DNA of 64,000 nt. Origin: Paraburkholderia sp. D15 (GTDB lineage Bacteria; Pseudomonadota; Gammaproteobacteria; Burkholderiales; Burkholderiaceae). Shown piece after piece: positions 20,129 to 62,472 of the stretch. The notes under the pieces are model-generated. The model did not search any database. It was not told where the DNA came from and saw only the letters and a program-made list of their open reading frames with translations. The stretch lies in contig NZ_CP110396.1 of assembly GCF_029910215.1 (NCBI RefSeq), positions 806,001 to 870,000 of the forward strand. Reading direction: 5' to 3'. A program made the translations under genes and the position numbers. Within the stretch, counting starts at the first letter, position 1, and every line of letters begins with the position of its first letter.

Positions 20129-20147
20129 CATCGTCTTTTCAGACTAC
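20129..20147 (+). promoter_or_regulatory. Steroid-regulon operator candidate, site 1
   Basis: CATCGTCTTTTCAGACTAC fits the recurring pattern ATCGTCY-N4-RGACTAG with one mismatch at the end. It lies in the divergent promoter region between hsaD and an SDR, 55 bases before the SDR start. Confidence 0.65.
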
Positions 20148-20201
20148 GAGGCGCGGCCGCATTTCTCCTACCATCGGGCCCACATGAACTGAGGGATGGA
20201 G

Positions 20202-21161
20202 ATGACGGCAATGACGGGATTCGATTTCAGCGGCAAGGTCGTGCTGGTGACGGGCGGCACCAAGGGCATCGGTGCGCGTATCGCGCAGGCGTTCATCGCG
20301 GCGGGCGCGACGGTGTACGTGTGCGGACGCACGGCGCCCAGCGCGGATGGGAGCGAACCGCCACAACAAGCACAACAAGCACAACAGAAGCAGGAGCCGC
20401 TTCGCGCGGCGGCGTCGAGCCCTTCCTTTGGCGCACCGCGCTTCATCGCCGCCGACGTGCGCGACATCGACGCGATCGACGCGCTGCTCGCCCGCATCGA
20501 ACACGAAACCGGCCGGCTCGACGTGGTCATCAACAACGCGGGCGGCGCGCCGTTCGCGCTCGCCGCCGAGGCGTCGCCGCGCTTCACAGAGGCGGTGATC
20601 CGCCTCAATCTGCTCGCGCCGCTGCAACTCGCGCAGCGCGCGAACGCGCGGATGCAGCAGCAAAGCGACGGCGGCGTGCTGTTGTTCATCGGCAGCGTGA
20701 GCGGTTTGCGCGCGTCGCCGGGCACCGCGGCTTATGGCGCGGCGAAGGCGGGCCTGCTCAACGCCGTGCGCTCGCTCGCGGTCGAATGGGCGCCGAAGGT
20801 GCGCGTGTGCGCGGTGAGTCCGAGTCTCGTCGACACCGAGTCGGCCACGCAGGGCCACACGGGGTCGGGGTCGGCGTCGGCACGATCGCAGGAAGCGGCG
20901 CAAGCGCACGGATCGCAAACCACGCACGATCAGCACGAACCGCAGGTCCCACTCGACCCGCTCGCCGCCATTGCCGCGACGATTCCCGCCGGCCGCCTCG
21001 CGCAACCCGACGACATCGCATCCGCCTGTCTGTTCCTCGCATCGCCGCTTGCCGCCTACGCATCGGGCAGCAACCTGGTGCTCGAAGGCGGCGGCGAGGT
21101 GCCCGCCTTTCTCGCCGCGACAGGTCAACTGAACAACGCGAAACCACCGGCCCGCACTTAA
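20202..21161 (+). CDS. Short-chain dehydrogenase of the steroid cluster
   Basis: This 319-residue SDR has TGGTKGIG near residue 17, NNAGG and YGAAK. It is longer than a usual classical SDR (about 250 residues) because of two low-complexity inserts. One is Gln-rich after about residue 52 (QQAQQAQQKQ), the other a Ser/His/Gln-rich stretch near residue 225. GAGGG lies six bases before ATG 20202; an ATG at 20196 is the alternative. It opens the rightward arm, followed by DUF1302, DUF1329 and hsaEGF. Reaction unassigned; oxidation of a hydroxyl on a steroid or on an HIP-type intermediate is plausible. Confidence 0.8.
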   Translation: MTAMTGFDFSGKVVLVTGGTKGIGARIAQAFIAAGATVYVCGRTAPSADGSEPPQQAQQAQQKQEPLRAAASSPSFGAPRFIAADVRDIDAIDALLARIEHETGRLDVVINNAGGAPFALAAEASPRFTEAVIRLNLLAPLQLAQRANARMQQQSDGGVLLFIGSVSGLRASPGTAAYGAAKAGLLNAVRSLAVEWAPKVRVCAVSPSLVDTESATQGHTGSGSASARSQEAAQAHGSQTTHDQHEPQVPLDPLAAIAATIPAGRLAQPDDIASACLFLASPLAAYASGSNLVLEGGGEVPAFLAATGQLNNAKPPART

Positions 21162-21183
21162 CGCTGCCCCCACGCACGACCCC

Positions 21184-21205
21184 GACTGCGGACTCCCCCG
21201 CAGTC
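21184..21205 (+). terminator. Hairpin after the SDR
   Basis: GACTGCGG (21184-21191) pairs with CCGCAGTC (21198-21205) over a 6-base loop. C-rich rather than T-rich sequence follows, so this is a weak terminator candidate. It precedes an operator-like site and the DUF1302 gene. Confidence 0.4.
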
Positions 21206-21224
21206 CCTCCCCCAGGACAAGCGA

Positions 21225-21242
21225 CTAGTCCGTTTTGACGAT
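21225..21242 (-). promoter_or_regulatory. Steroid-regulon operator candidate, site 2
   Basis: On the minus strand this reads ATCGTCAAAACGGACTAG, matching ATCGTCY-N4-RGACTAG except for one base in the left arm. It lies 70 bases before the DUF1302 gene, which suggests a separate promoter for the DUF1302-DUF1329-hsaEGF operon. Confidence 0.65.
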
Positions 21243-21311
21243 TCCCGCCCCGCACACGGCCCCTAACCTCTGATCACAACAAATTTCAGACGTGACCACA
21301 GAGGAGACAGG

Positions 21312-22886
21312 ATGCAGATCAACGAAACACAGGAGCGCGCACCCACCCTGCGCGCGGTGTGCGCGGCGTGCAAGCTGACCATGCTGGCGGCAACGGCGCT
21401 GAGCGTGGCGCCGGCTTACGCGGGCGATACGCTGAATCTCGGCGCGGACACCACGCTCGATTACACCTTCACGGTGGGCTACGGTCTCGGCATGCGTACG
21501 CGCGCGCCGAGCGGCGACCTCCTGACGCCCGCGAACATCAACGGCGACGACGGCGACCGCAACTTCGCGAAGAACAAGCTGATCGAAAACCAGGTGAGCC
21601 TGCTCGGCGAAGTGAACCTCAAGCACGACGACTGGGGTGTGTTCGTGCGCGCCAACACCTTCTACGATCAGGCGTATCAACACTCGAACTACAACGACGC
21701 ACCGGGCACGGTGAACCACAGCGGCGTCTACAACAACTTCAGCGAACAGGCGAATTACTGGGCCGGCGGGCGCACGCAACTGCTCGCGGCCTATGTGTAC
21801 AACACTTTCAAGCTGGGCGGCACGAGCCTGAACGTGAAGGTCGGCGACCAGGTGCTCGCGTGGGGCGAAAGCGTGTTCTTCCCGAACATCGCCGGTGCGC
21901 AAGGCCCCGCGGATGCAACCAAATCGTTCGTCGCGGGTGCCGAAGTGAAGGACGTGCTGCTGCCCGTCCCGCAGATTTCGACGCAGTGGCAGATCACGCC
22001 GAACTTCAGCCTGCTCAGCTACTACCAGTTCGCGTTCGAGCCGAACCAGCTGAGCGCGCCAGGCAGCTACATGAGCTATACCGACGTGGTCGGTCCCGGC
22101 GCGCAATACATCATCGGACCCGGCGGCGTGCAGATTCCGCGCGCGCCCGACAGCCGTCCCGGCAACAGCGGCCAATGGGGCGTCGGCGCCCGCTGGCGCG
22201 TGCTCGGCGACACCGAGATCGGCGCGTACTACCTGCACTACAACGACATGAATCCGAATGTCGTGACGACCTACTTCCCCACGCTGTCGTATCAGGAAAA
22301 GTTCTTCGACAACATCAAGCTCAGCGGCCTGAGCTTCTCCACCGAACTGAACGGCGTGAACATCGCCGGCGAAACGTCGTACCGCCAGGGCGCGGCCGTA
22401 CTCGTGAACACGCCGGCCGGCGCACAGGCGACGCGCGGCGACGTCTGGCAATCGAACCTCTCGGCGATCTATTCGATCGGGCCGACGTTCCTCGCCGCAT
22501 CGCAGTCGCTGGTGGGTGAAGTCTCGTACGTACACGCCGGCAACATCACGCCGATGATGGGTTCGACAACGCTCACCAACTCGCGCAATGCCGCCGCCTT
22601 CGAAGTGGCGTGGACGCTCAGCTACAAGAACGTCTTCAACGGCTGGGATCTCGATGTGCCGATCACCTATTCCGACGACTTCACCGGCAAGTCGCCGCTC
22701 GCGGGCGCGCTCGGTTCGCTGACCGGCGTCGGCGATCACCGCGCGACCATCGGCGTGACCTTCACGCGCCTGAGCAACCTGCAACTCGCGCTGGTCTACG
22801 CGAAGTTCCTCGGCAGTCCGGACCCGGTCAACCGTCCGCTCGCCGATCGCGACTACGTGCTGGCCACCGCGAAATATTCGTTCTGA
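21312..22886 (+). CDS. DUF1302 outer-membrane protein
   Basis: This 524-residue protein has a signal peptide (hydrophobic stretch near residues 20-36 ending APAYAGDT). A long region of alternating polar and hydrophobic residues follows and ends in YSF, as expected for an outer-membrane barrel. Features usual in DUF1302 proteins include DYTFTVGYGLGMR, VKVGDQVLAWGESVFFPNI and a late AFEVAWTLSY segment. GGAGA precedes ATG 21312. DUF1302 genes recur with DUF1329, YCF48-like and RND genes in proteobacteria that grow on hydrophobic compounds. The likely role is passage of steroid across the outer membrane, inferred from context. DUF1329 follows after a strong intergenic hairpin. Confidence 0.88.
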   Translation: MQINETQERAPTLRAVCAACKLTMLAATALSVAPAYAGDTLNLGADTTLDYTFTVGYGLGMRTRAPSGDLLTPANINGDDGDRNFAKNKLIENQVSLLGEVNLKHDDWGVFVRANTFYDQAYQHSNYNDAPGTVNHSGVYNNFSEQANYWAGGRTQLLAAYVYNTFKLGGTSLNVKVGDQVLAWGESVFFPNIAGAQGPADATKSFVAGAEVKDVLLPVPQISTQWQITPNFSLLSYYQFAFEPNQLSAPGSYMSYTDVVGPGAQYIIGPGGVQIPRAPDSRPGNSGQWGVGARWRVLGDTEIGAYYLHYNDMNPNVVTTYFPTLSYQEKFFDNIKLSGLSFSTELNGVNIAGETSYRQGAAVLVNTPAGAQATRGDVWQSNLSAIYSIGPTFLAASQSLVGEVSYVHAGNITPMMGSTTLTNSRNAAAFEVAWTLSYKNVFNGWDLDVPITYSDDFTGKSPLAGALGSLTGVGDHRATIGVTFTRLSNLQLALVYAKFLGSPDPVNRPLADRDYVLATAKYSF

Positions 22887-22890
22887 CAGC

Positions 22891-22918
22891 GCGTGGGCCG
22901 CGCCGCCGCGGCCCACGC
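22891..22918 (+). other. Intercistronic hairpin
   Basis: GCGTGGGCCGCG and CGCGGCCCACGC form a perfect 12-bp stem with a 4-base loop, five bases after the DUF1302 stop codon. There is no T run, so read-through into DUF1329 is likely. It could stabilise the upstream message and favour DUF1302 over the downstream products. Confidence 0.55.
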
Positions 22919-22978
22919 CTTCCGGAACCTGCATCACCCTTTGAATCAGCCGTCTTTTTACTGCAAGAGGATTTGGTC

Positions 22979-24358
22979 ATGAGTCGAATTTTCACACCCG
23001 CCCTGCGTGTCTGCGTGTTCGCCGCGGGCGCGGCGCTCGCCGCTGCATCGTTCGCGAAAACCAGCCAGGAAGATCTCGCCAAACTCGACGGCCCGCTCAC
23101 GCCGATGGGCGCCGAGCGCGCGGGCAACGCCGACGGCACGATTCCGGCATGGAGCGGCAAATGGTTCGGCACGCCGCCGGACGTCGACTACAAGCCGGGC
23201 CAACGCTTCCCCGATCCGTACGCCAACGAGAAGCCGCTGTTCGTGATCACCGCGCAGAACATGCAGCAATACGACGCGCGTCTGACCGACGGCGAAAAAG
23301 CGCTGCTCAAGAAATACCCCGACACGTTCAAGATTCCGGTCTATCCGAGCCATCGCGATTTCCGCTACAGCGAGTCCGAATACAAGGACATCAAGCTGTA
23401 CGCGCCGAATACCACCATGACCAAGGACCAGAACGGCCTGAAGGATTTCCCGCCGGTCACGCCGTTTCCGGTGCCGAAGAACGGCGTCGAGCTGATGTGG
23501 AATCTGCGTTTCGCGTCGGCGATCGAAGGTGAAACGGCGACCTACGATCAGGCCGTCGTCTACCCGGACGGCAACATCGCCTGGGGCAAGGTGCAGTACT
23601 CCATTTACGGTCCGCGCAGCGCGCCGAACTACGACCCGAAGAACCCGCTGAACGCGAAGAGCTACTTCCGCCAGACCACCATGCTGCCGCTGTCGGACCG
23701 CGGCACGATCCTGACCGGCTACGAGATGTGGGATCAGGAAGGCTCCGACACGCGCCGCACCTGGTCGTATAACCCCGGCACGCGACGCGTGCGCCAGGCA
23801 CCGGAGTTCGGCTTCGATCAGCCCGAAGGGCCGGGCGGTTTCCGTACCGTCGACGACGATCGTCTGTTCAACGGCTCGGGCGAACGTTACGACTGGAAGA
23901 TCGTCGGCAAGCGCGAAGTGTATGTGCCGTACGACAACTACAAGCTGATGGACCCGTCGATCAAGTACACCGACATTCTGACCAAGGGTCACGAGAATAC
24001 GCAGTACATGCGCTTCGAACTGCATCGCGTGTGGGTGTTGCAGGCGACGCTGAAGGCCGGCTATCGCCATCAATACGCGAAACGTGTGCTGTATCTCGAC
24101 GAGGACACCTGGAACGCCGTGGCCGCCGACAACTACGACGCACGCGGCACGCTGTGGCGCACCAACCTCGCGCCGACGCTGTACGCGTTCGACGCCAAGT
24201 CGTTCTACTCGACCGCGGTGTTCTATCACGACCTGATCTCCGGCGCTTACTACGCCGACCGCCTGTCGAATCAGGAACCGATGCCGGTGCTCACGCGCGG
24301 CTCGCAGATGAACGAAGCGTTCTTCTCGCCCGACGCGATTCGCGGCGCGGGCAACTGA
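22979..24358 (+). CDS. DUF1329 (LolA-like fold) periplasmic or outer-membrane-associated protein
   Basis: This 459-residue protein has a signal peptide (residues 1-26, ending ASFAKTS) and no lipobox. It matches DUF1329: DLAKLDGPLTPMGAERAGNADG at the mature start, then GTIPAWSG, FPDPYANEKPLF and the central QTTMLPLSDRGTILTGYE region. These proteins resemble lipoprotein carriers in fold. They almost always accompany DUF1302 proteins in hydrophobic-substrate clusters, so a role in ferrying steroid across the periplasm is plausible but unproven. The preferred start is ATG 22979, which gives the signal peptide at once; a hairpin separates it from DUF1302. Confidence 0.88.
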   Translation: MSRIFTPALRVCVFAAGAALAAASFAKTSQEDLAKLDGPLTPMGAERAGNADGTIPAWSGKWFGTPPDVDYKPGQRFPDPYANEKPLFVITAQNMQQYDARLTDGEKALLKKYPDTFKIPVYPSHRDFRYSESEYKDIKLYAPNTTMTKDQNGLKDFPPVTPFPVPKNGVELMWNLRFASAIEGETATYDQAVVYPDGNIAWGKVQYSIYGPRSAPNYDPKNPLNAKSYFRQTTMLPLSDRGTILTGYEMWDQEGSDTRRTWSYNPGTRRVRQAPEFGFDQPEGPGGFRTVDDDRLFNGSGERYDWKIVGKREVYVPYDNYKLMDPSIKYTDILTKGHENTQYMRFELHRVWVLQATLKAGYRHQYAKRVLYLDEDTWNAVAADNYDARGTLWRTNLAPTLYAFDAKSFYSTAVFYHDLISGAYYADRLSNQEPMPVLTRGSQMNEAFFSPDAIRGAGN

Positions 24359-24373
24359 ACCCGGGGGCATCAA

Positions 24374-24421
24374 GACGTGCGGCAAGCCAGCCATGCAGCA
24401 GCGGCCGGCATGCCGCACGTC
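24374..24421 (+). terminator. Hairpin after DUF1329
   Basis: GACGTGCGGCA (24374-24384) pairs with TGCCGCACGTC (24411-24421) over a 26-base loop. A moderately T-rich stretch follows at 24440-24465. It may partly terminate transcription before hsaE or act as a stabiliser. Confidence 0.45.
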
Positions 24422-24470
24422 TCCTCGCGGCCCGCTTCATTTCTTTCCTCGTTTTCGATCCGTCTCTGCG

Positions 24471-25253
24471 ATGACCTCGACCCTACACGCCGAACTCGGC
24501 GACACGCTGTATCGCGCGTGGCTCGACCGCGCGCCCATCGCGCCATTTTCCGCGCAAGCCGGCGGCCTCGCGATCGCCGACGCCTATCGCGTGCAACAAC
24601 ACTTCATTGCTCGCCGTATCGCCGCGGGCGAAACCGTGGTCGGCAAGAAGATCGGGCTGACGAGCGCGGCCGTGCAGAACATGCTCGGCGTGCACCAGCC
24701 TGATTTCGGCATGCTGCTCTCCGGCATGCATTACGTCGCCGGCGAAGCGATTCCGATCGACACGCTGATCGCGCCGCGCGCCGAGGGCGAAATCGCCTTC
24801 TATCTGAAACACGATCTGCGTGGCCCCGGCATCACGCGCGAGGCGGTCCTCGCCGCGACCGATTCCGTGGGCGCGTGCTTCGAAATCGTCGACTCGCGGA
24901 TTCGCGACTGGGCGATCCGTATCGGCGACACCGTGGCCGACAACGCGTCGTGCGGCGTCTACGTGCTCGGCCACGAACGCGTGCCGCCCGCCTCGCTGGA
25001 TCTCGCCGCCTGCCGCATGACGCTCGACAGGAACGGCCAACGGGTAGCCGAAGGGGTCGGCGCGGCGGCGCTCGGCCATCCGGCGGACGCCGTCGCCTGG
25101 CTCGCCAACACGCTCGGCGAGCACGGCGTGCCGCTGCTCGCGGGTGAAGTCGTGCTGTCGGGTTCGCTGGCCGCGCTGATTCCCGTTGCGGGCGGCGACG
25201 TGCTGGACATGCATATCGAAGGCATCGGCGGTTGCTCGGTGCGCTTCGTCTGA
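24471..25253 (+). CDS. hsaE: 2-hydroxy-2,4-dienoate hydratase (HsaE/TesE)
   Basis: This 260-residue enzyme of the hydratase/decarboxylase branch adds water to 2-hydroxyhexa-2,4-dienoate, giving 4-hydroxy-2-oxohexanoate. Family marks are KKIGLTS, QPDFGMLLSGM, the metal-site EGEIAFYL, and VGACFEIVDSRIRDW. ATG 24471 is chosen because upstream residues are not conserved. It opens the hsaE-hsaG-hsaF trio that takes the A-ring fragment released by HsaD to propionyl-CoA and pyruvate. The order hsaE-G-F matches other steroid and meta-pathway clusters. Confidence 0.92.
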   Translation: MTSTLHAELGDTLYRAWLDRAPIAPFSAQAGGLAIADAYRVQQHFIARRIAAGETVVGKKIGLTSAAVQNMLGVHQPDFGMLLSGMHYVAGEAIPIDTLIAPRAEGEIAFYLKHDLRGPGITREAVLAATDSVGACFEIVDSRIRDWAIRIGDTVADNASCGVYVLGHERVPPASLDLAACRMTLDRNGQRVAEGVGAAALGHPADAVAWLANTLGEHGVPLLAGEVVLSGSLAALIPVAGGDVLDMHIEGIGGCSVRFV

Positions 25254-25287
25254 CTGCTTGACCGTCTTTCACTAAAGGAAGCATTGA

Positions 25288-26184
25288 ATGAGCAAGATCA
25301 AATGCGCATTGATCGGCCCCGGCAACATCGGCACCGATCTGCTGTACAAGCTGCGCCGCAGCGCGGTGCTCGAACCGGTCTGGATGGTCGGCGTCGACGC
25401 CGCCTCCGAGGGACTCGCGCGCGCGCGCGAATTGGGCCTGAAGACCACGGCCGACGGCATCGACGGCCTGCTGCCGCATCTCGCCGACGACGACATCCGC
25501 ATCGCCTTCGACGCCACCTCGGCCTACGTGCACCGCGAGCATTCCGACAAGCTGACCGCGCGCGGCGTGCGCGTGATCGACCTGACGCCTGCCGCGATCG
25601 GCCCGTTCTGCGTGCCGCCGGTGAACCTCGCCGCGCAGATCGATCGGCAGGTGATGAACGTCAACATGGTCACGTGCGGCGGCCAGGCGACGATCCCGAT
25701 GGTGCATGCGGTATCGCGCGTGCAGCGGGTCGTGTACGGCGAGATCGTCGCGACCGTATCGTCGCGTTCGGTTGGACCCGGCACGCGCAAGAACATCGAC
25801 GAATTCACGCGCACCACGGCGCAGGCGATCGAACAGATCGGCGGCGCGGCGGTGGGCAAGGCGATCATCGTGATCAACCCGGCCGAGCCGCCGTTGATCA
25901 TGCGCGACACGATTCATTGTCTGACCGAGAGCGATCCCGACATCGACGCGATCACGGCCTCCGTGCATGCGATGGTCGACGAGGTGCGCCAGTACGTGCC
26001 CGGCTACAAGCTGAAAAACGGGCCGGTATTCGACGGCCGGCGCGTCTCCGTGTTCATGGAAGTGGAAGGACTCGGCGACTACCTGCCGAAGTACGCAGGC
26101 AATCTGGACATCATGACGGCGGCCGCCGCGCGTACGGCCGAAGTATTCGCGCAACAGATGCTGGCCGCATCCACCACTGCATAA
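25288..26184 (+). CDS. hsaG: Acylating aldehyde dehydrogenase (HsaG/TesF)
   Basis: This 298-residue NAD-dependent enzyme converts the propanal (or acetaldehyde) released by the aldolase to its CoA ester. The NAD motif GPGNIGTD is at residues 10-17 and the catalytic Cys is C130 in [24 protein letters not shown] and [12 protein letters not shown] are typical of MhpF/BphJ proteins. It is followed ten bases later by the aldolase. In this family the two enzymes form a complex with a channel that passes the aldehyde directly, and close gene spacing fits that. Confidence 0.95.
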
Positions 26185-26194
26185 GGAGCTGACG

Positions 26195-27220: not shown

Positions 27221-27275
27221 CTGGTTTTTTGTTTGCCTGCGCGGCGCTTTTTTTTGGTCTGGAATTTTTTGGCTT

Positions 27276-27379: not shown

Positions 27380-27510
27380 CAACCGTATTGGAAGTCAAGC
27401 GACGGGTATCGGGTGGGCGGCGGATCACATGTCGATCCGCCGGCGACGTACAGGCGAGCGCATGCCGCACGATCTCCGATCGCGCCTTCGGTAAGAACGC
27501 TTGAAGAAGT

Positions 27511-28633
<1,123 letters not shown>

Positions 28634-28635
28634 AG

Positions 28636-29077: not shown

Positions 29078-29099
29078 AAACAACAACATCGAGCAAATT

Positions 29100-30031: not shown

Positions 30032-31108
30032 TCAGGCTTCGAACACGTGCCGCAACGGCGGCGGCGTGCCGCCCTCCCTCACCTTGATCTCCACCACCTT
30101 GCGCGCGGTGCTCGATGGTCGCACATCCGCCGTGTCGAGATAGAACTGCGAGTACCAGTCCCGCATCTGGTATAGCGGACCATCGCCCTCGCACAGCAAC
30201 GGATTGTCGATTCGCGTCTTCGTGTCCCAGATCGCCACGTCCTCGTAGAACGCGGCCTGCGCCTGCTTCGCGTAGGCGCGCGCAATCTCCATGTTCTGCT
30301 CGTCCGATAATCCCGGCACCTTCTTCACCATCACGCCATAGCGCAACTCGAAACTGTTCATGTCGATCGGCACGTGACAGTTCAACAGGATCGAATTGAT
30401 CGGATGGCCACCGCTCTGCCCCGTCATCTCGGTGATGTGATACGCGGGGCCGAAATACGTCGACAGCGCAATCAGTTCGTCGCCGCCCAGCCGCTCGCTG
30501 CGCCCCACCAGCAGTTGCGTCGCCTTGTGGCCTTCGAACAGATTCGCGAAATAGTCCACCGGCGCGCCATGCACGGTCGCGAAGTGCGCCATGTCGGAAA
30601 TGTTGTCCACCAGCTCGCGGCAGTTCGTGCCGATCTCCATCCGGTCGATCACCCAGTCCGACCACTCGTCGGAAAAACACGCGTCGATGCGCGGAATCGC
30701 GACGGTTTCATCCGGCAGACTGCCTTCGGGGTCGTTCCACACGAACAGCAGGTTGTTCTGCTCGCAGGTGGGCCACGTGCCGATCTTCGCCTTCGGCGGA
30801 ATACGCTTGCAGTACGGAATCGACTGGCAATTGCCGTCGCCGTCCCATTGCCAGCCGTGAAACGGACACACCAGCGTGTCGCCATCCACGCGGCCCGCGC
30901 TCAGGTCGCCGCCCATGTGCGGGCAGAAACCGTCGACCACGTTCACGCGGCCCTGCGTATCCATGAACGCGGCAAGGCGCTGGCCGAAAATATTCAGCGT
31001 GTGCGGCTTGCCGTCCTTGTACTCGCTCGCGAGTCCGAGGCAATGCCAGCCGCGCGCATAACGCTGCGCAAGCGGTTGCGCTTCGATCTTGTAGGGACGT
31101 GCGGACAT
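30032..31108 (-). CDS. kshA: 3-ketosteroid 9alpha-hydroxylase, oxygenase component KshA
   Basis: This 358-residue Rieske non-haem iron oxygenase adds a 9alpha-hydroxyl to androstadienedione-type steroids, after which ring B opens and ring A becomes aromatic. The Rieske cluster ligands are C62 and H64 (CPHMGGD) and C81 and H84 (CPFHGW). The mononuclear iron ligands lie in NCRELVDNISDMAHFATVHG (H175, H180), with a later Asp near 295. The DYFANLFEGHKATQLLVGRS stretch is characteristic of KshA. Its reductase KshB is 21 kb away in the same array. It is the last minus-strand gene, 133 bases after the RND gene, with an operator-like palindrome in that gap, so it probably has its own promoter. Confidence 0.93.
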   Translation of the reverse strand: MSARPYKIEAQPLAQRYARGWHCLGLASEYKDGKPHTLNIFGQRLAAFMDTQGRVNVVDGFCPHMGGDLSAGRVDGDTLVCPFHGWQWDGDGNCQSIPYCKRIPPKAKIGTWPTCEQNNLLFVWNDPEGSLPDETVAIPRIDACFSDEWSDWVIDRMEIGTNCRELVDNISDMAHFATVHGAPVDYFANLFEGHKATQLLVGRSERLGGDELIALSTYFGPAYHITEMTGQSGGHPINSILLNCHVPIDMNSFELRYGVMVKKVPGLSDEQNMEIARAYAKQAQAAFYEDVAIWDTKTRIDNPLLCEGDGPLYQMRDWYSQFYLDTADVRPSSTARKVVEIKVREGGTPPPLRHVFEA

Positions 31109-31226
31109 CTTCTTATCTCCTCCGATGGAAAAAGCGGCGCGGGTCGCGCGCCGCCGTCACGGGTATGGGTTGGATAGCGCGCAACACGCGCCTGGGTCTG
31201 ACGATAAACGCCGCTCGCGCCGCGTT

Positions 31227-31245
31227 CATCGTCTCGACGGACTAG
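31227..31245 (+). promoter_or_regulatory. Steroid-regulon operator candidate, site 3
   Basis: CATCGTCTCGACGGACTAG matches ATCGTCY-N4-RGACTAG perfectly. It lies 119 bases upstream of kshA, and its CTA includes the TAG stop codon of the RND gene. Confidence 0.75.
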
Positions 31246-49275: not shown

Positions 49276-50172
49276 TCAAAGAAATCCCACGCTGAAGTCG
49301 TGGCCCCACAGGCTCACGCGGGTCGCCTCGTAGACGTTGTGCTGTTCCCAGTCGACCGTCAGGCCGCCGTAGCCGTATTCCAGGTCGAAGCCGCCCGGCG
49401 TCTTCATGTAGAACGAGATCATCCGGTCGTTGCAGTGGCGGCCGAGCGTTGCCGAGAGCTTCACGCCCTGCGCCGCGGCGCGGTCGAGCGCACGGCCCAC
49501 TTCGTCCATCGATTCGACTTCGGCCATCACGTGAATGCAGCCGGACGGCACCGCCATGTCCATGATCGCGAGGCTGTGATGACGCGCGTTCCGGCAGTGC
49601 AGGAAGTGGATGCGCTTCTCGGGTTCGGCGGGGTCGTCGGTGAAGCGCACGCGGAAGATGTCGGAGAGCTCGAAGCCCATCACGTTGCGCAGGAATGCAT
49701 CGGTCGCGTCGAACTGCGGCGCGGGCAGCACCGCGTGGCCGAGACCCATCGCGCCGGTGACGAAACCCGGCACGCCGAGCGGCGAGGCGAAGCGGCGGAA
49801 ATCCGCGCGCACGCCCCAGAAAAATTCGTGACGGTTGCCCGAGGGGTCCACGCACCACGCCATCGCCTGCACGCGGCGCAGCGCGGCTTCGGCGGCGCTC
49901 GCGCGGACCGCTTCCATGCCGCACAGTTCGAGCGCGCGGATCGCGTGATCGAACGCGGCGGCGTCGGCCAGTTCCCAGCCGGACGCGACGTAGCGGTCGC
50001 TGTCGCCGGGCACGATCAGGTAGCGGAAATCGCGCTCGTCCATCTTCAGATACAGCGCGCCGTCCGCGGCATCCTGGGTCTGCATGCCCAGCACTTTTTC
50101 GGCGTAATCGCGCCATGTGTCGACCTGGGTCGACTGCACGACGACGTAGCCTAAAGCCCGCACTTCGATCAT
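49276..50172 (-). CDS. hsaC: Extradiol dioxygenase HsaC/TesB
   Basis: This 298-residue type I extradiol dioxygenase with two vicinal-oxygen-chelate domains cleaves ring A of 3,4-DHSA between C4 and C5. Iron ligands visible by comparison with BphC are H146 (GLGHAVL), His near 199 (NARHHSLAI) and E265 (GFDLEYGYGG). The N-terminal domain starts EVRALGYVVVQST and includes WELADAAAFDHAI. It is the first gene after a good operator-like palindrome (50234) and probably leads the ipdA-ipdB-...-RND unit. Its product is the HsaD substrate. Confidence 0.93.
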   Translation of the reverse strand: MIEVRALGYVVVQSTQVDTWRDYAEKVLGMQTQDAADGALYLKMDERDFRYLIVPGDSDRYVASGWELADAAAFDHAIRALELCGMEAVRASAAEAALRRVQAMAWCVDPSGNRHEFFWGVRADFRRFASPLGVPGFVTGAMGLGHAVLPAPQFDATDAFLRNVMGFELSDIFRVRFTDDPAEPEKRIHFLHCRNARHHSLAIMDMAVPSGCIHVMAEVESMDEVGRALDRAAAQGVKLSATLGRHCNDRMISFYMKTPGGFDLEYGYGGLTVDWEQHNVYEATRVSLWGHDFSVGFL

Positions 50173-50233
50173 CTCCGACTCCTCCAGAAACCGTTGTTGT
50201 CAGGCTTATTCTGGCGCTGGGGGAGCGGTGCTA

Positions 50234-50252
50234 CATCGTCTGTTGGGACTAG
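50234..50252 (+). promoter_or_regulatory. Steroid-regulon operator candidate, site 4
   Basis: CATCGTCTGTTGGGACTAG matches ATCGTCY-N4-RGACTAG exactly and lies 62 bases upstream of hsaC. Its CTA contains the TAG stop codon of fadD3, the same arrangement as at site 3. Confidence 0.75.
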
Positions 50253-53822: not shown

Positions 53823-53842
53823 CTTCGTTCTCTCTTTCAGTG

Positions 53843-55540: not shown

Positions 55541-55557
55541 GGCGCGCGATGCCTCGT

Positions 55558-56076: not shown

Positions 56077-57863
56077 GATGTGACTCCGCGAAGTTCGCTG
56101 GGGGATCGTGAAACTGCGCCGGAAGCAACGCCGGAAGCAGCGCCTGAAGCAGCACTCGACGCCGCGCCGTCGCCGGCGAGATGGTTGGCGGCGATGTAGC
56201 CGAAGGTCATCGCGGGTCCGAGCGTCGAGCCCGCGCCCGGATAGCTCGCCCCCATCATCGACGCGCTCGTGTTGCCGATCGCGAAGAGCCCCTCGATCGG
56301 CGAACCGTCCTCGCGCAGCACACGCGCCAGCGCGTCGGTGACGAGCCCGCCCTTCGTGCCGATGTCGCCCGCGTCGACGCGCACCGCGTAGTACGGGCCG
56401 GTTTCGATGGGTGCGAGACAGGGGTTCGGCTTCACGCTCGGGTCGCCGTAGTAGGTGTCGAACACGTTGCCGCCCTTGCCGAATTCCTCGTCCACGCCGC
56501 TCGCGGCGTAGCGGTTCATCTTCGCGACCGTGTCGCGCAGGCCCTCGGCGTTCACGCCGATCTGCGCGGCCAGTTCATCAAGCGATCCGGCCTTGTGCAA
56601 CAGCGAACGGAACGCGGGCGGAATGCGCGAGTCGGGCATCATCGACGCCGGCATGACCGGACCGCATGGATAGTTGCGGCGAAAACGCGCATCGAACACC
56701 ATCCACGCCGGCACGCTCGCGCCGGTTTGTTCGTGATCGCGATACATCGCACGGACGATCTCCGAGTACGGTCCCGCCTCGTTGACGAAGCGCTTGCCGA
56801 GTCCGTTGACGATCACGCAGCCCGGCAGATTGCGCTCGACGAACAGCGCACGCTGCTTTTCCTCGCGCTCGACGTGCACGGTCGGCGCGCCCCACACGTG
56901 CTCCATCAGCGCGATGCCTGCGCCGAGCTGCATGCCAACCGCGATCGCGTCGCCCGTGTTGGCGGGGGGCGTCGCGCTCCAATGCGTTTGCGTGGGTTGC
57001 GGCAGGAAGCGCGCGCGCATCGCCTGATTGCGTTCGAAGCCGCCCGCCGCGAGAATCACGCCGCGCTGCGCGAGCACACGAACCCGGCGGCCCTCGCGTT
57101 CGATCACCACGCCGCTCACGCGTCCCTGGTCCTCAAGCACTTCGCACATCGGCGCCTCCAGCCACACCGGTACCTGGCGATCGAGCAGCGCGCGCCGCAG
57201 ACCGCCGGTGAGCGCGTTGCCGAGCGTCAGACGGCGGTCGCGGCGCGTGCGCAGCCGCATGCGCAGGTCGAGCCAGTAGCGGCCGAACTGCCGCACCGCG
57301 AGGCCGATATAACCCGGCGCCTTCGACAGCATCTGCTGCGCTTCCTTCGAGGTCACCGCCACGCGGCCGCCGACCAGCGTGCCCGGCGACGGATCGCGCA
57401 GCCGCGCGAATTCGGCGCCGAGCAATGCGCCGTCGAACGGCAGCGGATCGAGCGCGCGATAGCCCGGCATCGCGCCGGGCAGATGCTGGAAATAGTCCGC
57501 GTATTTCGCCAGCGACTGGTAACGCACCGGCGTCTTCGTTTCGAGGTAGCGCAGCATCTCGGGCGCGGTGTCGAGATAGGCGTCGATCTTCTCGCTCGCC
57601 GTCAGGCCTTCCGTGCAGGCGTCGAGATAGGTGCGGGCCGCTTCGCGCGTATCGGTCGCGCCGAGTTCGGCGATGTGGTGATTGCACGGAATCCAGATGC
57701 CGCCGCCCGACACCGCCGAGGTGCCGCCGTATTTGTCGCTCTTTTCGAGCACCACCACGGAAAGACCGCGGTCGGCCGCGCGGCAGGCGGCCAGCATGCC
57801 GCCCGCGCCGGAGCCGATCACCACCACGTCGAACGCGTGGGTTTCGCTTGTCTGTTCGCTCAT
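56073..57863 (-). CDS. kstD: 3-ketosteroid dehydrogenase (KstD family)
   Basis: This 596-residue FAD enzyme introduces a double bond in ring A of 3-ketosteroids. The dinucleotide-binding start is FDVVVIGSGAGGMLAACRAADRGL. KYGGTSAVSGGGIWIPCN, FDGALLGAEFARLRDPSPG, LAAGGFERNQAMR, RFVNEAGPY, ETGPYYAVRVDAGDIGTKGG and IGNTSASMMGASYPGAGSTLGPAMTFG-type ends follow. The Tyr residues in the GPYYAV stretch correspond to catalytic Tyr in known delta1 enzymes. The last 35 residues are an Ala/Ser-rich tail with repeated SGA units. Delta1 is the best guess, with delta4(5alpha) as the alternative. Confidence 0.87.
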   Translation of the reverse strand: MSEQTSETHAFDVVVIGSGAGGMLAACRAADRGLSVVVLEKSDKYGGTSAVSGGGIWIPCNHHIAELGATDTREAARTYLDACTEGLTASEKIDAYLDTAPEMLRYLETKTPVRYQSLAKYADYFQHLPGAMPGYRALDPLPFDGALLGAEFARLRDPSPGTLVGGRVAVTSKEAQQMLSKAPGYIGLAVRQFGRYWLDLRMRLRTRRDRRLTLGNALTGGLRRALLDRQVPVWLEAPMCEVLEDQGRVSGVVIEREGRRVRVLAQRGVILAAGGFERNQAMRARFLPQPTQTHWSATPPANTGDAIAVGMQLGAGIALMEHVWGAPTVHVEREEKQRALFVERNLPGCVIVNGLGKRFVNEAGPYSEIVRAMYRDHEQTGASVPAWMVFDARFRRNYPCGPVMPASMMPDSRIPPAFRSLLHKAGSLDELAAQIGVNAEGLRDTVAKMNRYAASGVDEEFGKGGNVFDTYYGDPSVKPNPCLAPIETGPYYAVRVDAGDIGTKGGLVTDALARVLREDGSPIEGLFAIGNTSASMMGASYPGAGSTLGPAMTFGYIAANHLAGDGAASSAASGAASGVASGAVSRSPSELRGVTS

Positions 57864-57874
57864 GACGGCGCCCG

Positions 57875-59068
57875 TCAGATGAAGAAATCGGTATTCGGGC
57901 GGCCCAGCATCACCGCGCCGAGGTTCTGTCCGAAACGGTCGACGTTGTTCGCGTAGTGCGCGCGCGCGGCGTGCAGATCGAGAAAGCGCCGCACCAGCGG
58001 ATTACGGTTGTAGATGCCGTTGCCGCCCGCGTAACGCAGCAGCGCATTGGCCGCCTGCGCGCAACGCTCGGCCACCTGCGCCGATTGATACCGGAACAGC
58101 ACGCGCCGTTCGATCGACACGTCCGGGCCGCCGTTGGCCGCGTCCATCAACTCGGCGAAATTGCGCTTGAGCAGCACCTTCATTTCGTCGACGGCGACCG
58201 CCGCGTTCGCGCAGGCGGTTTGCGCGCCGGTGTCGTCGGTGGTTTTCGCGCCGCTGTTGGCGCTGACGCGAGTCGCGGCATAGCCGGTGAAATCGTCGAG
58301 CGCGCCTTGCAACGCGCCGATACACGCGGTGCACACCGCGCGCACGAAGATCTGCGCGAACGGCAGATGGAACAGCGGCGCGTCGTTGACGGCGAGGCCC
58401 GGGCTGGTGCCCATCATCCCGTCGATCGCCTTATGCGTGCGGTAGTCGGGCACGAACACGTCGTCCACGAGGATGTCGTGACTGCCGGTCGCGCGCAGAC
58501 CGAGCACGTCCCAGTCCTGCTGGATCGTGTAGTCGCTTTTCGGCAGCAGGAAGGTGCGGTACTCGGGCGGTTCGCCGTCCTTCGCCGGCGGCACCAGCGC
58601 GCCGAGAAACACCCACTCGCACAGCTCGCTGCCGCTTGAAAATTTCCAGTGACCCGAGAGACGGAAGCCGCCTTCGACCGGCGTCACGCGCCCCACCGGC
58701 ATATACGTCGAGGCGATCAACGTGCTCGGGTCGCGCCCCCACACGTCCTGCTGCGCGCGTTCGTCGAACAGCGCGAGCTGCCAGTTGTGCACGCCGACCA
58801 CGCCGTACACCCATGCGCTCGACATGCAGCCGCGCGCCACCGCCATCTGGATCTCGAAGAAGGTCTGCGGGTCGAGTTCGTAGCCGCCGTAGCGCTTGGG
58901 CTGCAGCACCTTGAAGAAACCCGCCGCCTGAAAGTCGGCGATCGTCCCGGCGGGAATCCGCCCGTTGGCCTCGGCCTGCGCGGCGCGTCCGGCCAGCACC
59001 GGCGCCAGCGCCTCGGCGCGGGCAATCAGTTCGGCTGCAAGGGCGTTCGAATCGTTGTCGCGATGCAC
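57875..59068 (-). CDS. hsaA: 3-HSA hydroxylase, oxygenase component HsaA
   Basis: This 397-residue flavin-dependent monooxygenase of the acyl-CoA dehydrogenase fold includes GFFKVLQPKRYGGYELDP, ARGCMSSAWVYGVVGVHNWQLALF, GGFRLSGHWKFSSGSELCEW and GLRATGSHDILVDDVFVPD. GGNGIYNRNPLVRRFLDLHAARAH near the end replaces the acyl-CoA dehydrogenase active-site region. It hydroxylates ring A of 3-HSA to the catechol cleaved by HsaC, using flavin reduced by HsaB. It is the first gene after a near-perfect operator-like palindrome and probably leads a unit running to fadD3. Confidence 0.92.
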   Translation of the reverse strand: MHRDNDSNALAAELIARAEALAPVLAGRAAQAEANGRIPAGTIADFQAAGFFKVLQPKRYGGYELDPQTFFEIQMAVARGCMSSAWVYGVVGVHNWQLALFDERAQQDVWGRDPSTLIASTYMPVGRVTPVEGGFRLSGHWKFSSGSELCEWVFLGALVPPAKDGEPPEYRTFLLPKSDYTIQQDWDVLGLRATGSHDILVDDVFVPDYRTHKAIDGMMGTSPGLAVNDAPLFHLPFAQIFVRAVCTACIGALQGALDDFTGYAATRVSANSGAKTTDDTGAQTACANAAVAVDEMKVLLKRNFAELMDAANGGPDVSIERRVLFRYQSAQVAERCAQAANALLRYAGGNGIYNRNPLVRRFLDLHAARAHYANNVDRFGQNLGAVMLGRPNTDFFI

Positions 59069-59140
59069 GGCTGTCTCCTATGTTTTCTCGTGTGAAACTG
59101 TCTGAGGGCGTTTCATCTTCGAGGGCCGGCCGCCGCGTCG

Positions 59141-59159
59141 CATCGTCTGAAGAGACTAG
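59141..59159 (+). promoter_or_regulatory. Steroid-regulon operator candidate, site 5
   Basis: CATCGTCTGAAGAGACTAG matches ATCGTCY-N4-RGACTAG exactly and differs from site 4 at only three bases. It lies 73 bases upstream of hsaA, in the gap after the LLM gene. Confidence 0.75.
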
Positions 59160-59192
59160 CGGCGCGCGCGGCCGTTTCGCGTGCGCGCGGCG

Positions 59193-60347
59193 TCAGGCGA
59201 CGGCCTGCGCCTTTTCCTTGCCCGCCTTCAGGCGGTTGAAATAAGGAATCACGTGCTCGCCGATGTTGCGGATCGTTTCGAGCTGCGCTTCGTGCGGCAC
59301 GGTGCCCATCTGGCACAGGAACAGCACTTCGTCGACGCCCGCTTCCATCAGACGGCCCACGTAGCCGATGCAATCGTCGACGGTGCCGTATGCGTGGTTC
59401 GGGTTCATCATCGAGAGCGCCGGGTCGCTGAAGTCGACCACCACTTCTTCCGACGCGAAGCGCGAGCGGATCACCATTTCGCCGGTGTTGCCCTGCACCA
59501 GATCGTCGCCCCACTTCGACGGATCGGGACGTTCGCCGCCGGTGTACCAGTACGCGAGCGATTCCATGAAGTAGCGCTGGCCGCGAATGCCGATCTTGCG
59601 CGCCTGCTGGCCGTCGCTCATCACCACCGTCGGGCACAGCGCGGCGAGATGCTGGGTCGGACGGAAGCCGACCTGGTCCTCGGGCTTGCGGCTCGCCCAT
59701 GCGTCGCGATACAGCGCGTTCTTCTTCGCCACTTCGTCCGGGCCGCCGAAACCGAGCACCAGCGCGCCAAGACCGCGTTGTCCGGCGCGCACCAGGCCGT
59801 CGCTATTGGTGCAGGCCATGTACATCGGCGGATGCGGGTCCTGGAACGGCTTCGGGTGAATCGGACGCTTAGGAATCTTGATGTACTTGCCGTCGTGTTC
59901 GATCTCGTCCTGCACGAACATCTTCGGCACCAGATACATCGACTCGTCGATCATCGGCTGCAGTTCCGCGAGGTCGTAGCCGAACGCGCCGGCTTCCTGC
60001 TGGCTGCCGCCCTTGCCGACGCCGAAGTGCACGCGCCCGCCCGACAGGATGTCGAGCATCGCGACGCGCTCCGCGACCTTGATCGGATGGTTCATCGCGG
60101 GCGGCAGGCAGATCACGCCGTGGCCGAGGCCGATGCGCGTGGTGCGGCCCGCGAGATACGCGAGAAAGGTTTCCGGCGCGCTCATGTGCGCATAGTTCGT
60201 CAGCGACGTGTGTTCGACGCACCAGATGGTGTCGAAGCCGACTTGCTCGGCCAGCAGCGCCTGTTCGACGGTTTCCTTGAAAACCCGGTGGTCGCCTTCC
60301 CGCGAAGCGTCCGTGGTCTGGGCTTCGTAAATCAGAGAAAACTTCAT
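59193..60347 (-). CDS. Luciferase-like (LLM) flavin-dependent oxidoreductase
   Basis: This 384-residue bacterial-luciferase-like monooxygenase has MKFSLIYEAQT at the start, WCVEHTSLTNYAHMSAPETFLAYLAGRT, GHGVICLPPAMNHPIKVAERVAMLDILSGGRVHFGVGKG split over strands 3-5, and a late EAGVDEVLFLCQMGT. GGAGA precedes ATG 60347. It has its own promoter region with two operator-like sites, and an operator also separates it from hsaA. No step of the known androgen pathway needs such an enzyme, so it may act on a particular substrate (for example a Baeyer-Villiger or hydroxylation step). Reduced flavin could come from HsaB. Confidence 0.83.
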   Translation of the reverse strand: MKFSLIYEAQTTDASREGDHRVFKETVEQALLAEQVGFDTIWCVEHTSLTNYAHMSAPETFLAYLAGRTTRIGLGHGVICLPPAMNHPIKVAERVAMLDILSGGRVHFGVGKGGSQQEAGAFGYDLAELQPMIDESMYLVPKMFVQDEIEHDGKYIKIPKRPIHPKPFQDPHPPMYMACTNSDGLVRAGQRGLGALVLGFGGPDEVAKKNALYRDAWASRKPEDQVGFRPTQHLAALCPTVVMSDGQQARKIGIRGQRYFMESLAYWYTGGERPDPSKWGDDLVQGNTGEMVIRSRFASEEVVVDFSDPALSMMNPNHAYGTVDDCIGYVGRLMEAGVDEVLFLCQMGTVPHEAQLETIRNIGEHVIPYFNRLKAGKEKAQAVA

Positions 60348-60470
60348 TGCGTGCGTCTCCATGAATTTTGGACTGTGCTGAATCGGGCGGCAGCCCGTTC
60401 TCAGGCGCCGAACCCGGTGAGGATCGTGACGGTCCACGCAACGGAGTTTCAGATCGCGCGGGCTTGTCGG

Positions 60471-60489
60471 CATCGTCTGTTTGGGTTAA
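60471..60489 (+). promoter_or_regulatory. Degenerate steroid-regulon operator, site 6
   Basis: CATCGTCTGTTTGGGTTAA keeps the left arm CATCGTCT fully but only part of the right arm. It lies 124 bases upstream of the LLM start and is the weakest member of the set. Confidence 0.4.
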
Positions 60490-60599
60490 CGGAGCGCAAT
60501 TTGGCGAGGGCGGGTTCGCCGGCCGGCACGCAGCAGTTTTTTCACGCGCTGCCACAGGGTTTTCACGGTCCTGTGCGACGCTTTTCCGTTTTTGACGGG

Positions 60600-60618
60600 C
60601 TAGTCCGATCGGACCTAG
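60600..60618 (-). promoter_or_regulatory. Steroid-regulon operator candidate, site 7
   Basis: On the minus strand this reads CTAGGTCCGATCGGACTAG. The core GTCC-GATC-GGACTAG fits the pattern and its central TCCGATCGGA is a perfect palindrome. It lies between the divergent LLM and VOC genes, 90 bases before the VOC start. Confidence 0.65.
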
Positions 60619-60707
60619 TGCGACCCGCCGGCGCGACGCTACGATCGATTCGCGCCCCAACGAGCGGGCGCGCGAACCACGACGCACAACCAGGGGAGTG
60701 CAAGGCA

Positions 60708-61061
60708 ATGAAGGCTTCGATGATGCTGTATCCGGTCGACTCGATCGACGCGGCACTGCCGCTTTTTGTCGACGGCTTGGGACTGGCGGTGAAATTCCGC
60801 GACGGCGAGCGCTATTGCGCGCTCGACGGCGTGAGCATGACGGTGGCGCTGGTGGCCGGCGAGGAACGGATCGTCGAGCGCGCGGCGCTGGTGTTCAAGG
60901 TCGACGAAGACGACGATCTGTACGCGGCGATGGCGCGCGTGGTCGCGGCGGGCGCGTCGGTGCGGGTGCCGGTGCAGCAGGGGCCGCACGAGTGGCGCGC
61001 GGTGCTGGAGGATAAGAACGGCGCGCTGCTGGTGTTGTCGCAGAAGCGGGCGAATGCCTGA
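60708..61061 (+). CDS. VOC-fold (glyoxalase/dioxygenase) protein, 117 residues
   Basis: This small single-domain vicinal-oxygen-chelate protein has MLYPVDSIDAALPLFVDGLGLAVKFRDGERYCALD and a late QQGPHEWRAVLEDKNGALLVLSQ, which carries the terminal Glu/Asp region of the fold. AGGGGAG lies nine bases before ATG 60708. It is divergent from the LLM gene, sharing a promoter region with operator-like site 7. The usual metal-ligand His is not obvious in the first half, so it may be a binding or isomerase-like member. Function unknown; location implies steroid induction. Confidence 0.75.
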   Translation: MKASMMLYPVDSIDAALPLFVDGLGLAVKFRDGERYCALDGVSMTVALVAGEERIVERAALVFKVDEDDDLYAAMARVVAAGASVRVPVQQGPHEWRAVLEDKNGALLVLSQKRANA

Positions 61062-61071
61062 GCGGTGAGCT

Positions 61072-61096
61072 CACGGGCGCGGGGTACGCGCCCGTG
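61072..61096. terminator. Hairpin between convergent VOC and LuxR genes
   Basis: CACGGGCGCG and CGCGCCCGTG form a perfect 10-bp stem with a 5-base loop, ten bases after the VOC stop codon. No T run follows on either strand. It is a possible bidirectional terminator. Confidence 0.5.
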
Positions 61097-61150
61097 AGGC
61101 TGAACGTGATGTGACTTAACGCGCGACACGTCGCGCGTGACGCGTCGCGA

Positions 61151-62338
61151 TTAACCCAGCGGCACCACGCTGCCCAGCAGAATGCGCACGAGCGTGGCCT
61201 GGCGCGTCACGCCGGTCTTCGAGAAGATCGCCCGCAGATGCGCGCGCGCCGTGTTCTTGCTGATGCCCAGCTCGTCGGCGGCCTCTTCGAGCGTGAGCCC
61301 ATTGGTCAACAGCAACGCGAGCGAGGTCTCGGCCGGCGTGAGATCGAACAGCTTGCGCACGATCTCCTGCGAGCCTTGCGACTTGCGGTCCGGGTCGCGC
61401 AGAAACAGCACGGTCGCCGGGCGCCGCTTGTTGTCCTCGGACCAGTCCGATAGCGGAATGGTCCGCACCAGCACGCCGAGTTTCGGCTTGTCGCAGCCGC
61501 GCGTGATCGGCATCGCCTCGACGATCGGCGCGGCGGTGCCGAAGTGGCCCATTAACGCATGACGCACGAGGCGTTGCAGGTTGCGGTTCTCCTGCGCGTC
61601 GGTCGCCTCCACGTTGCCGTGCGCGATGCGCAACCCCTTGCCTTCCGCGAGAATCTCGTCGGCCACGCTGTTGGTGCGCATGATCGCGCCGCTTTCGTCG
61701 AGCGTGACCGTGCCCACCAGCATCCGGTCGATCGCGCTCGCGTACAGCGTGCGTTCCGATTCGACGATGTCGAGCCGCGAATGCAGCTCGACCGCGCGCC
61801 GCAGATGCGGCAGCAACAATGCGCAGAACGCCTTGTCGCGTGCGGAAAAATGCGTGGCGTCATGACGCCGGCATACCCGGAAGCGGCACTCCACGCCGGA
61901 CTCCGTGCGCAGATCCGCGCCCATGATGTAGCGGATGTCGGCGGGCTTCAGGAACTGCTTGTACAGCTCGCTGGTGAGCCAGCCGGTATCGCCGAACACT
62001 TCGTCGACCGTCACCACGCGATCGGCGGGCAGGCCGACGAACGGGTCGAGCGAATAGTAGTAGTTGTTGTACGACGCTTCGCCCGGCACACCCGAGCCCG
62101 CCTCCGATGCGTGGACCATCAGCCCGCGCCGGTCGCTCGACGGCGAACGCAGAATCAGCGTCACGTAGCTCGCGTCCAGCGATCCGCGGATCAGTTCGAG
62201 CGCACTTGCCCAGGGGGTGCTTTCCAGCGGTCCTTGATAAAGCCGCGCGGCAAGTTCGCTGAATTGCGCGACGTTCAGGTCCGCGAGTTCGCTCGCGGAC
62301 TGGCCCTCTTCGGGGGCCCATCTTGTCTCCATCAACAC
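61151..62338 (-). CDS. LuxR-family regulator, TeiR/TesR-like
   Basis: This 395-residue regulator has a non-AHL N-terminal sensory region of about 320 residues. That region includes a GAF/PAS-like part with YYYSLDPFVGLPADRV and FSARDKAFCALLLPHLRRAVELHSRL, and a second PAS-like part near residues 205-235. The C-terminal LuxR helix-turn-helix is LTPAETSLALLLTNGLTLEEAADELGISKNTARAHLRAIFSKTG. Size, domain order and position at the end of a steroid cluster resemble TeiR/TesR, the testosterone-responsive activator of Comamonas testosteroni. It is the best candidate to bind the recurring palindrome, one copy of which (62454) lies in its own upstream region. The start may be ATG 62338 or 62332. Confidence 0.85.
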   Translation of the reverse strand: MLMETRWAPEEGQSASELADLNVAQFSELAARLYQGPLESTPWASALELIRGSLDASYVTLILRSPSSDRRGLMVHASEAGSGVPGEASYNNYYYSLDPFVGLPADRVVTVDEVFGDTGWLTSELYKQFLKPADIRYIMGADLRTESGVECRFRVCRRHDATHFSARDKAFCALLLPHLRRAVELHSRLDIVESERTLYASAIDRMLVGTVTLDESGAIMRTNSVADEILAEGKGLRIAHGNVEATDAQENRNLQRLVRHALMGHFGTAAPIVEAMPITRGCDKPKLGVLVRTIPLSDWSEDNKRRPATVLFLRDPDRKSQGSQEIVRKLFDLTPAETSLALLLTNGLTLEEAADELGISKNTARAHLRAIFSKTGVTRQATLVRILLGSVVPLG

Positions 62339-62453
62339 GCTCCGTCCTCCATGCGATTTTGCATCGCGACGCCAAGCTTACGGGCCGCCCCGTTCGCCTG
62401 CATCGGTGGAAGTACTTAGCCGCGACAAGTTTCGCAGAGCGTGCTAACGAACT

Positions 62454-62472
62454 CTCGTCCAATCGGACGATG
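62454..62472 (-). promoter_or_regulatory. Steroid-regulon operator candidate, site 8
   Basis: On the minus strand this reads CATCGTCCGATTGGACGAG. It keeps the left arm CATCGTCC and the GGAC half, with TCGTCC/GGACGA forming a 6-bp inverted repeat. It lies between the divergent LuxR-type regulator and HSL-type hydrolase genes, so autoregulation is possible. Confidence 0.55.

Follow-up and report, generated by a model that had tools for sequence, protein, structure and literature searches.

A polar palindrome at the steroid degradation promoters of Paraburkholderia sp. D15, the probable operator of a TeiR-like LuxR-type activator

In Comamonas testosteroni, TeiR/TesR is needed for the induction of most identified steroid genes, as far as the accessible text on this organism relates. 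Pseudomonas stutzeri Chol1 carries TeiR-like genes as well, and deleting one of them delayed cholate degradation (PMC8399759, available sections). A positive regulator of steroid genes has been in print since 2004, yet the same sections call the mechanism by which bacterial bile-acid breakdown is regulated largely unknown. Here, we analyzed a 64,000-nt stretch of the Paraburkholderia sp. D15 genome (contig NZ_CP110396.1, positions 806,001 to 870,000; the window), in which the transcription units of a steroid degradation cluster are preceded by a shared imperfect palindrome (the box). The box is probably the operator of a transcriptional activator, bound by a dimer of the LuxR-type protein encoded at 61151 (Table 1), and ten promoters, eight of them within the window, would form one regulon.

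Like TeiR/TesR, the 61151 protein has a LuxR-type helix-turn-helix (HTH) domain and is encoded within a steroid gene cluster. With the LuxR class II activators and their lux boxes, the system shares an 18- to 20-bp inverted repeat near -42.5 and a GerE-type HTH. It differs from them in the fixed polarity of its box and in a regulator without a Pfam-detectable autoinducer-binding domain, and its half-site (ATCGTC/CTAGTC) presumably differs from the lux-box sequence too. We take KstR and KstR2 of actinobacteria to be organized alike, with one regulator, dispersed steroid operons and a shared palindrome, and their operators to be unrelated to the present box. In the sources at hand, both are TetR-type repressors, unlike the LuxR-type 61151 protein. 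EdcR of Caenibius tardaugens likewise acts at a palindrome shared by steroid (estrogen) promoters in Proteobacteria; it is described as a repressor whose operator, TnnCnnTACnAnTnGTAnnGnnA, overlaps the -10 box (PMC8700777, available parts), and by inspection this consensus is unlike ours. No TeiR/TesR operator is described in the searchable portions of the literature (PMC6678751, PMC8399759, PMC8700777, PMC6895838, PMC12239570, PMC4810484, PMC13101464); the primary TeiR papers lie outside that scope, and a published site is possible. To judge from what was looked up, the type of mechanism is known, and the operator and its reach appear to be new.

A pattern search of the window recovered all eight palindromes listed in a preliminary description of this DNA, which had given three of the start positions exactly and five one base too low. 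The pattern ATCGTCYNNNNRGACTAG, allowing up to three mismatches, matches 22 times in the window against 8.19 ± 3.10 times in 100 shuffles (shuffle maximum, 17), a comparison biased by the derivation of the pattern from this same window. The sites at 31228, 50235 and 59142 are perfect, as had been claimed, and the latter two differ at just the three bases noted before. One mismatch is found at 20130, 21225 and 62454, and three at 60472 and 60600. Beyond these eight sites, the sole window match with two or fewer mismatches is intragenic (55448). The boxes lie 63 to 151 nt from the start codon, inside the 55 to 250 bases reported earlier, with gene starts taken from our own codon-usage caller.

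Read toward the downstream gene, all eight sites share one polarity, CTAGTCY-N4-RGACGATG, with the GACGAT-type half nearer to the gene and the CTAGTC-type half farther from it. The site at 20130, which had been assigned to hsaD and a neighboring SDR gene together, points to hsaD and not to the SDR gene. At six of the eight sites, a hexamer of the form xAxxxT begins exactly 21 nt after the 18-bp box; the exceptions are 62454, with TTCAAT at 21 nt, and 60600, with TACGAT one base later. To assess this spacing more widely, a matrix built from seven window sites (no flanks, N4 ignored) was scanned over loci of 14 genomes, chosen for holding a regulator relative or an exact box. After removal of weaker minus-strand hits overlapping a better hit and of the window copies in locus L161, 139 hits were counted. 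Of these, 96 from 12 genomes were kept as intergenic, correctly oriented, scoring at least 13.2 and at most 300 nt from a gene; 30 were intragenic, and 13 failed on orientation, score or distance. The hexamer stands at offset 21 in 73 of the 96 boxes, at offset 22, the next best, in 13, and at each remaining offset from 10 to 35 in no more than nine, while only 4 of the 30 in-gene hits have it at offset 21. With the source genome left out, the count is 68 of 89 (per-genome range, 2/6 to 7/7). The base after the box is G in 91%. There is no conserved -35 hexamer, and the -10-like hexamers are poor. If the hexamer serves as the -10 element (-12 to -7), the box would extend from -51 to -34 with its center at -42.5, the position given for lux boxes in the accessible text of PMC4471428 and PMC3376562. 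In silico, the predicted placement of the element is that of a class II activator operator, overlapping the -35 region, and its 18- to 20-bp inverted repeat is common to the target promoters.

Two of the window sites are easier to read alongside their relatives. The copy at 60472, described before as weaker, is degenerate; close relatives have a strong form of this box ahead of their LLM gene (TTAATCCAAA[CT]AGACGATG). Among 19 relatives examined, 12 keep the degenerate proximal half of the box at 60600; the hexamer follows at 22 nt in all of these but one, where it follows at 21 nt. In these 12 VOC promoters, the box and TACGAT (TAGCAT in L143) are constant and the spacer and the start-codon distance vary; the remaining seven have more divergent sites. 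The box at 21225 was found identical in another genome (G250, L141:6691).

Across the whole genome (8,325,170 bases, three contigs), the exact core CGTCYNNNNRGACTAG has three matches, all in the steroid cluster. With up to one mismatch, ATCGTCYN4RGACTAG matches at 10 places: six in the window (31228, 50235, 59142, 20130, 21225 and 62454), one 3 kb past its end (contig 2, 873031) and three on contig 1. The oriented form TAGTCYN4RGACGATG occurs exactly at six places, four in the cluster (contig 2, 826129, 837227, 856234 and 865141), one past the window (873030) and one on contig 1 (3768299). Five of the six, all but 873030 with its GTCAAT, show a strict xAxxxT at the expected distance. Among its four one-mismatch places, 62454 has TTCAAT and the other three lack such a hexamer. 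In 20 of the 142 two-mismatch places, inspected for the hexamer, strict xAxxxT was found in none and xTxxxT in two. The exact box on contig 1 (L200:1500-1518) carries the -10-like AAGAAT, and some 70 nt downstream of it begins an Oxidored_FMN (old-yellow-enzyme-type) gene, which is predicted to be an off-cluster member of the regulon. The box at 873030 (equivalent to window coordinate 67030; L161:7031) precedes a 96-aa reading frame with no Pfam match, and a box also precedes a 96-aa frame in G250. A symmetric consensus, MTMGTCYN4RGACKAK, was tried and rejected for its loss of specificity (with up to one mismatch allowed, 59 hits per strand versus 122 in the reversed control).

The box recurs in the steroid clusters of other Burkholderiaceae, the conservation in orthologous clusters on which the preliminary description had made its reading depend. 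Of 299 family genomes, 53 hold the regulator (with all listed matches at about 1e-70 or better), 33 hold the exact original pattern, and 27 hold both. The pattern is thus present in 27 of 53 genomes with the regulator versus 6 of 246 without it (P = 3e-18, phylogeny ignored), and for 57 of 74 boxes a regulator gene is found on the same contig at a distance of 65 kb or less. Relaxed-pattern boxes lie no more than 2.5 kb from 56 of the 80 distinct regulator relatives inspected, and 53 of these have one with the hexamer. Among the 53 window gene calls, 61151 is the only regulator common to the nine other box-bearing cluster sets compared; gene calls placed a TeiR-like protein in nine of the ten sets, and separate searches found one in the remaining genome (G389). 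The co-occurrence and this sharing across cluster sets support the earlier choice of 61151 as first candidate, and its product is the best candidate binder on present sequence evidence.

At the level of the order, TAGTCYN4RGACGATG occurs exactly in 28 of 399 genomes. Of 300 genomes searched for the regulator, four hold it, namely, the source genome, one Burkholderia and two members of other families (G389 and G537). Searches across the class found it in only 2 of 369 genomes (the source genome and G389), and searches in the family of G537 in only 1 of 26, G537 itself. As a negative control, the hexamer accompanies 12 of 15 exact hits in regulator genomes versus 0 of 26 in the rest (P about 6e-8, Fisher, relatedness uncorrected, with 7 of the 26 hits in six genomes not searched for the protein). 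Boxes of G389 precede hsaA-, hsaC- and DUF1329-type genes, among others. Outside the family, the box accompanies relatives of 61151 in steroid clusters of two further Burkholderiales families and of two plasmids, one from Vibrio and one from Sphingobium. The Vibrio alfacsensis plasmid, whose regulator is 38 to 39% identical, carries ipd-, fadA6- and hsaA-type genes and three strong boxes. Those before the hsaA-type and etfB-type genes have strict hexamers (AAATCT and TACGCT, respectively); the third lies between divergent genes, and only its second direction shows one (GAAAAT). On the Sphingobium plasmid, a box precedes kshA with the hexamer AAAGTT. In a protein search, Vibrio, Shewanella, Marinobacterium and Pseudomonas proteins fell into the same family, with the DNA examined for the Vibrio plasmid only.

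The 61151 protein matches PF00196 (GerE) over residues 333 to 386 (29.0 bits; cut-off, 23.5), and its closest named relatives are from Paraburkholderia (96% identity). Pfam at E ≤ 1e-3 gave HTH-type domains only, with neither a kinase domain nor the autoinducer-binding domain PF03472, which is present in the LuxR solo encoded at 16655. A PDB profile search returned only HTH matches, to response regulators. The predicted model consists of a GAF-like domain, an additional mixed one and the HTH. In a second comparison, which barely tests the residues after 200, the modeled GAF-like domain (residues 14 to 199) resembles the ligand domains of QscR and LasR in fold; in Foldseek, the whole model gave only low TM-scores (at most 0.34 by query length among the 50 matches listed). 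The name TeiR is absent among the 240 homologues listed (of 971 and 1591 matched; most are unnamed). The protein is called TeiR-like by architecture and context, not by alignment.

A single operator for a single regulator, as the preliminary description had proposed, is well supported by the common polarity, the fixed hexamer spacing, the near-exclusive genomic location and the conservation in orthologous clusters. More promoters are predicted than the earlier minimum of four, eight in the window, and the regulon would reach beyond it. The best reading is a TeiR-like one-component activator with its operator and regulon. A dimer of the 61151 protein would bind the 18- to 19-bp box CTAGTCY-N4-RGACGATG about 42.5 bp upstream of the transcription start, where the box would stand in for a -35 element, and would bring sigma-70 RNA polymerase to the weak -10 hexamer 21 (once 22) nt downstream. 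A steroid or steroid metabolite, bound by the GAF-like N-terminal part, may be the trigger.

Several observations weigh against this activator reading. Reviews describe C. testosteroni TeiR as a polar membrane-associated kinase (PMC6678751 and PMC8399759, available sections), a poor fit to a plain DNA-binding activator. Of the 53 regulator-bearing family genomes, 26 lack the exact pattern; 25 of them belong to one genus matching named Burkholderia loci, and of 21 such loci inspected, 20 have a variant box near the regulator (e.g., ATCATCCGATYGGACGATG). No relaxed-pattern box lies within 2.5 kb of 24 of the 80 relatives, including all 11 Burkholderia paralogues (about 61 to 64% identity), one of which (L175) has boxes 4 to 6 kb away in its cluster. 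No convincing box was found near the 33 to 34% identical relatives in Sphingobium TomMM15 and Novosphingobium aromaticivorans, the latter also deviating in its recognition helix (NTAKVQLR). A box before a thiolase gene persists in some Cupriavidus-type genomes, including one that has no close relative of the regulator. That genome, G026 (best E, 1e-24), with its one box, favors a real operator with another binder, such as the LuxR solo at 16655, itself a GerE protein, the AraC-type regulator at 15566 or one encoded elsewhere, in which case the TeiR-like protein would merely travel with steroid clusters. This is unlikely: the TeiR-like gene is accompanied by the box even on the Vibrio and Sphingobium plasmids. 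The LuxR solo and the AraC protein in particular are disfavored, as their homologues (E ≤ 1e-20, 60% of length) were found in the window only, 1 of the 10 box-bearing cluster sets.

The box could instead be bound by a repressor, a dimer overlapping the -35 region and released by a steroid metabolite. It does partly overlap the expected -35 place, and KstR, KstR2 and EdcR are steroid repressors in the available parts of PMC6678751 and PMC8700777. We nevertheless regard repression as a slim prospect, since there is no conserved -35 to block, the -10 hexamers are poor, a repressor needs neither fixed polarity nor fixed spacing, and TeiR/TesR is a positive regulator in the C. testosteroni texts at hand. 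Pfam or NCBIfam scans of 39 of the 53 window gene calls gave no TetR-type match. The constant distance to the hexamer would also suit a promoter of an alternative sigma factor, a very improbable account given an 18-bp dyad that stands 21 nt from a sigma-70-like xAxxxT, unlike the layout of a -35/-10 pair, and whose left half is more variable than the right, as expected of a distal operator arm. Weak matches are another matter. At two mismatches, the genome has 114 hits versus 239 in the reversed control, so specificity is absent there, and only the strong matches withstand the comparison with hits in unrelated genes by which the preliminary description could have failed. Chance or compositional palindromes in GC-rich DNA are rejected for the strong matches by their exactness, polarity, hexamer spacing and conservation, and have a negligible claim on the element as a whole.

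Residue 366 of the regulator may vary together with the box: T stands at box position 15 in 5 of 32 hexamer-bearing sites with Thr366 and in 0 of 59 with Ala366. The five sites seem to come from about three lineages, and the association is suggestive only. Thr366 paralogues adjoin boxes with GATGAT, not GACGAT, half-sites (L063, L065, L170, L062, L171 and L178). A number of family genomes hold two to six regulator paralogues, several near boxes of their own (L150-L153, L162-L164 and L169-L173).

For a wider proposal, we see an even chance. One module, a soluble, one-component, steroid-sensing LuxR-type activator with a polar 19-bp class II operator, would control aerobic steroid breakdown across Alpha-, Beta- and Gammaproteobacteria, move with its clusters, plasmids included, and multiply into paralogues with shifted specificity (Thr366, GATGAT half-sites), replacing the Comamonas-only, membrane-kinase view of TeiR. 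The available text of PMC6895838 states that tesR-like genes occur only in C. testosteroni, a statement contradicted here if the present relatives count as tesR-like. A polar, spacing-constrained box yields exact predictions of regulon operons, transcript starts and a protein candidate, making the control of bacterial steroid breakdown directly testable, and it offers parts for steroid biosensors.

The window holds genes of a 9,10-seco steroid pathway, according to Pfam and NCBIfam scans of 39 gene calls; the other 14 include seven at 164-6932, and some of the names are drawn from context or from matches that fall short of the curated cut-off. The genes are hsaD, DUF1302/DUF1329, hsaE-G, kshA, an MMPL protein, thiolases, acyl-CoA dehydrogenases, ipdABC, hsaC, fadD3, kstD, hsaB and hsaA, together with LLM-class, VOC, LuxR-type regulator and hormone-sensitive-lipase-type genes (Table 1).

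Table 1. Boxes, candidate regulator and selected target genes, in window coordinates
Feature	Coordinates	Strand	Remarks
Box GTAGTCTGAAAAGACGAT	20130-20147	-	Toward hsaD (19095-19979, -); -10-like GATGAT 20103-20108
Box CTAGTCCGTTTTGACGAT	21225-21242	+	Before DUF1302/DUF1329/hsaE-G genes (from 21312, +); -10-like TAACCT 21264-21269
Box CTAGTCCGTCGAGACGAT	31228-31245	-	Before kshA (30032-31108, -); -10-like TATCGT 31201-31206
Box CTAGTCCCAACAGACGAT	50235-50252	-	Before hsaC-ipd genes (from 50172, -); -10-like CAGAAT 50208-50213
Box CTAGTCTCTTCAGACGAT	59142-59159	-	Before hsaA-kstD-hsaB genes (from 59068, -); -10-like GAAGAT 59115-59120
Degenerate box TTAACCCAAACAGACGAT	60472-60489	-	Before LLM-class gene (59193-60347, -); -10-like GAAACT 60445-60450
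Box CTAGTCCGATCGGACCTA	60600-60617	+	Before VOC gene (60708-61061, +); -10-like TACGAT 60640-60645, 22-nt spacing
Box CTCGTCCAATCGGACGAT	62454-62471	+	Before hormone-sensitive-lipase-type gene (62618-63604, +); -10-like TTCAAT 62493-62498; in gap divergent with regulator gene
TeiR-like LuxR-type regulator, 395 aa	61151-62338	-	GAF-like N-terminal domain (predicted model), C-terminal GerE HTH; candidate binder
HsaD-type meta-cleavage hydrolase	19095-19979	-	Box target; best NCBIfam match under its cut-off
KshA-type 3-ketosteroid 9-alpha-hydroxylase oxygenase	30032-31108	-	Box target
HsaC-type extradiol dioxygenase	49276-50172	-	Box target; leads ipd group
HsaA-type monooxygenase oxygenase subunit	57875-59068	-	Box target; best NCBIfam match under its cut-off

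The LuxR solo with the autoinducer-binding domain (16655-17656) and the AraC-type regulator (15566-16429) adjoin the hsaD end of the cluster. Within it, an IS110-type transposase (27511-28467) separates kshA from the aldolase of the hsaE-G group. Elsewhere, the box-like thiolase sites are located at L165:10018 (Cupriavidus-type) and G026:C1:1700193, the latter in the genome without a close TeiR-like protein, and have the hexamer shifted by one base.

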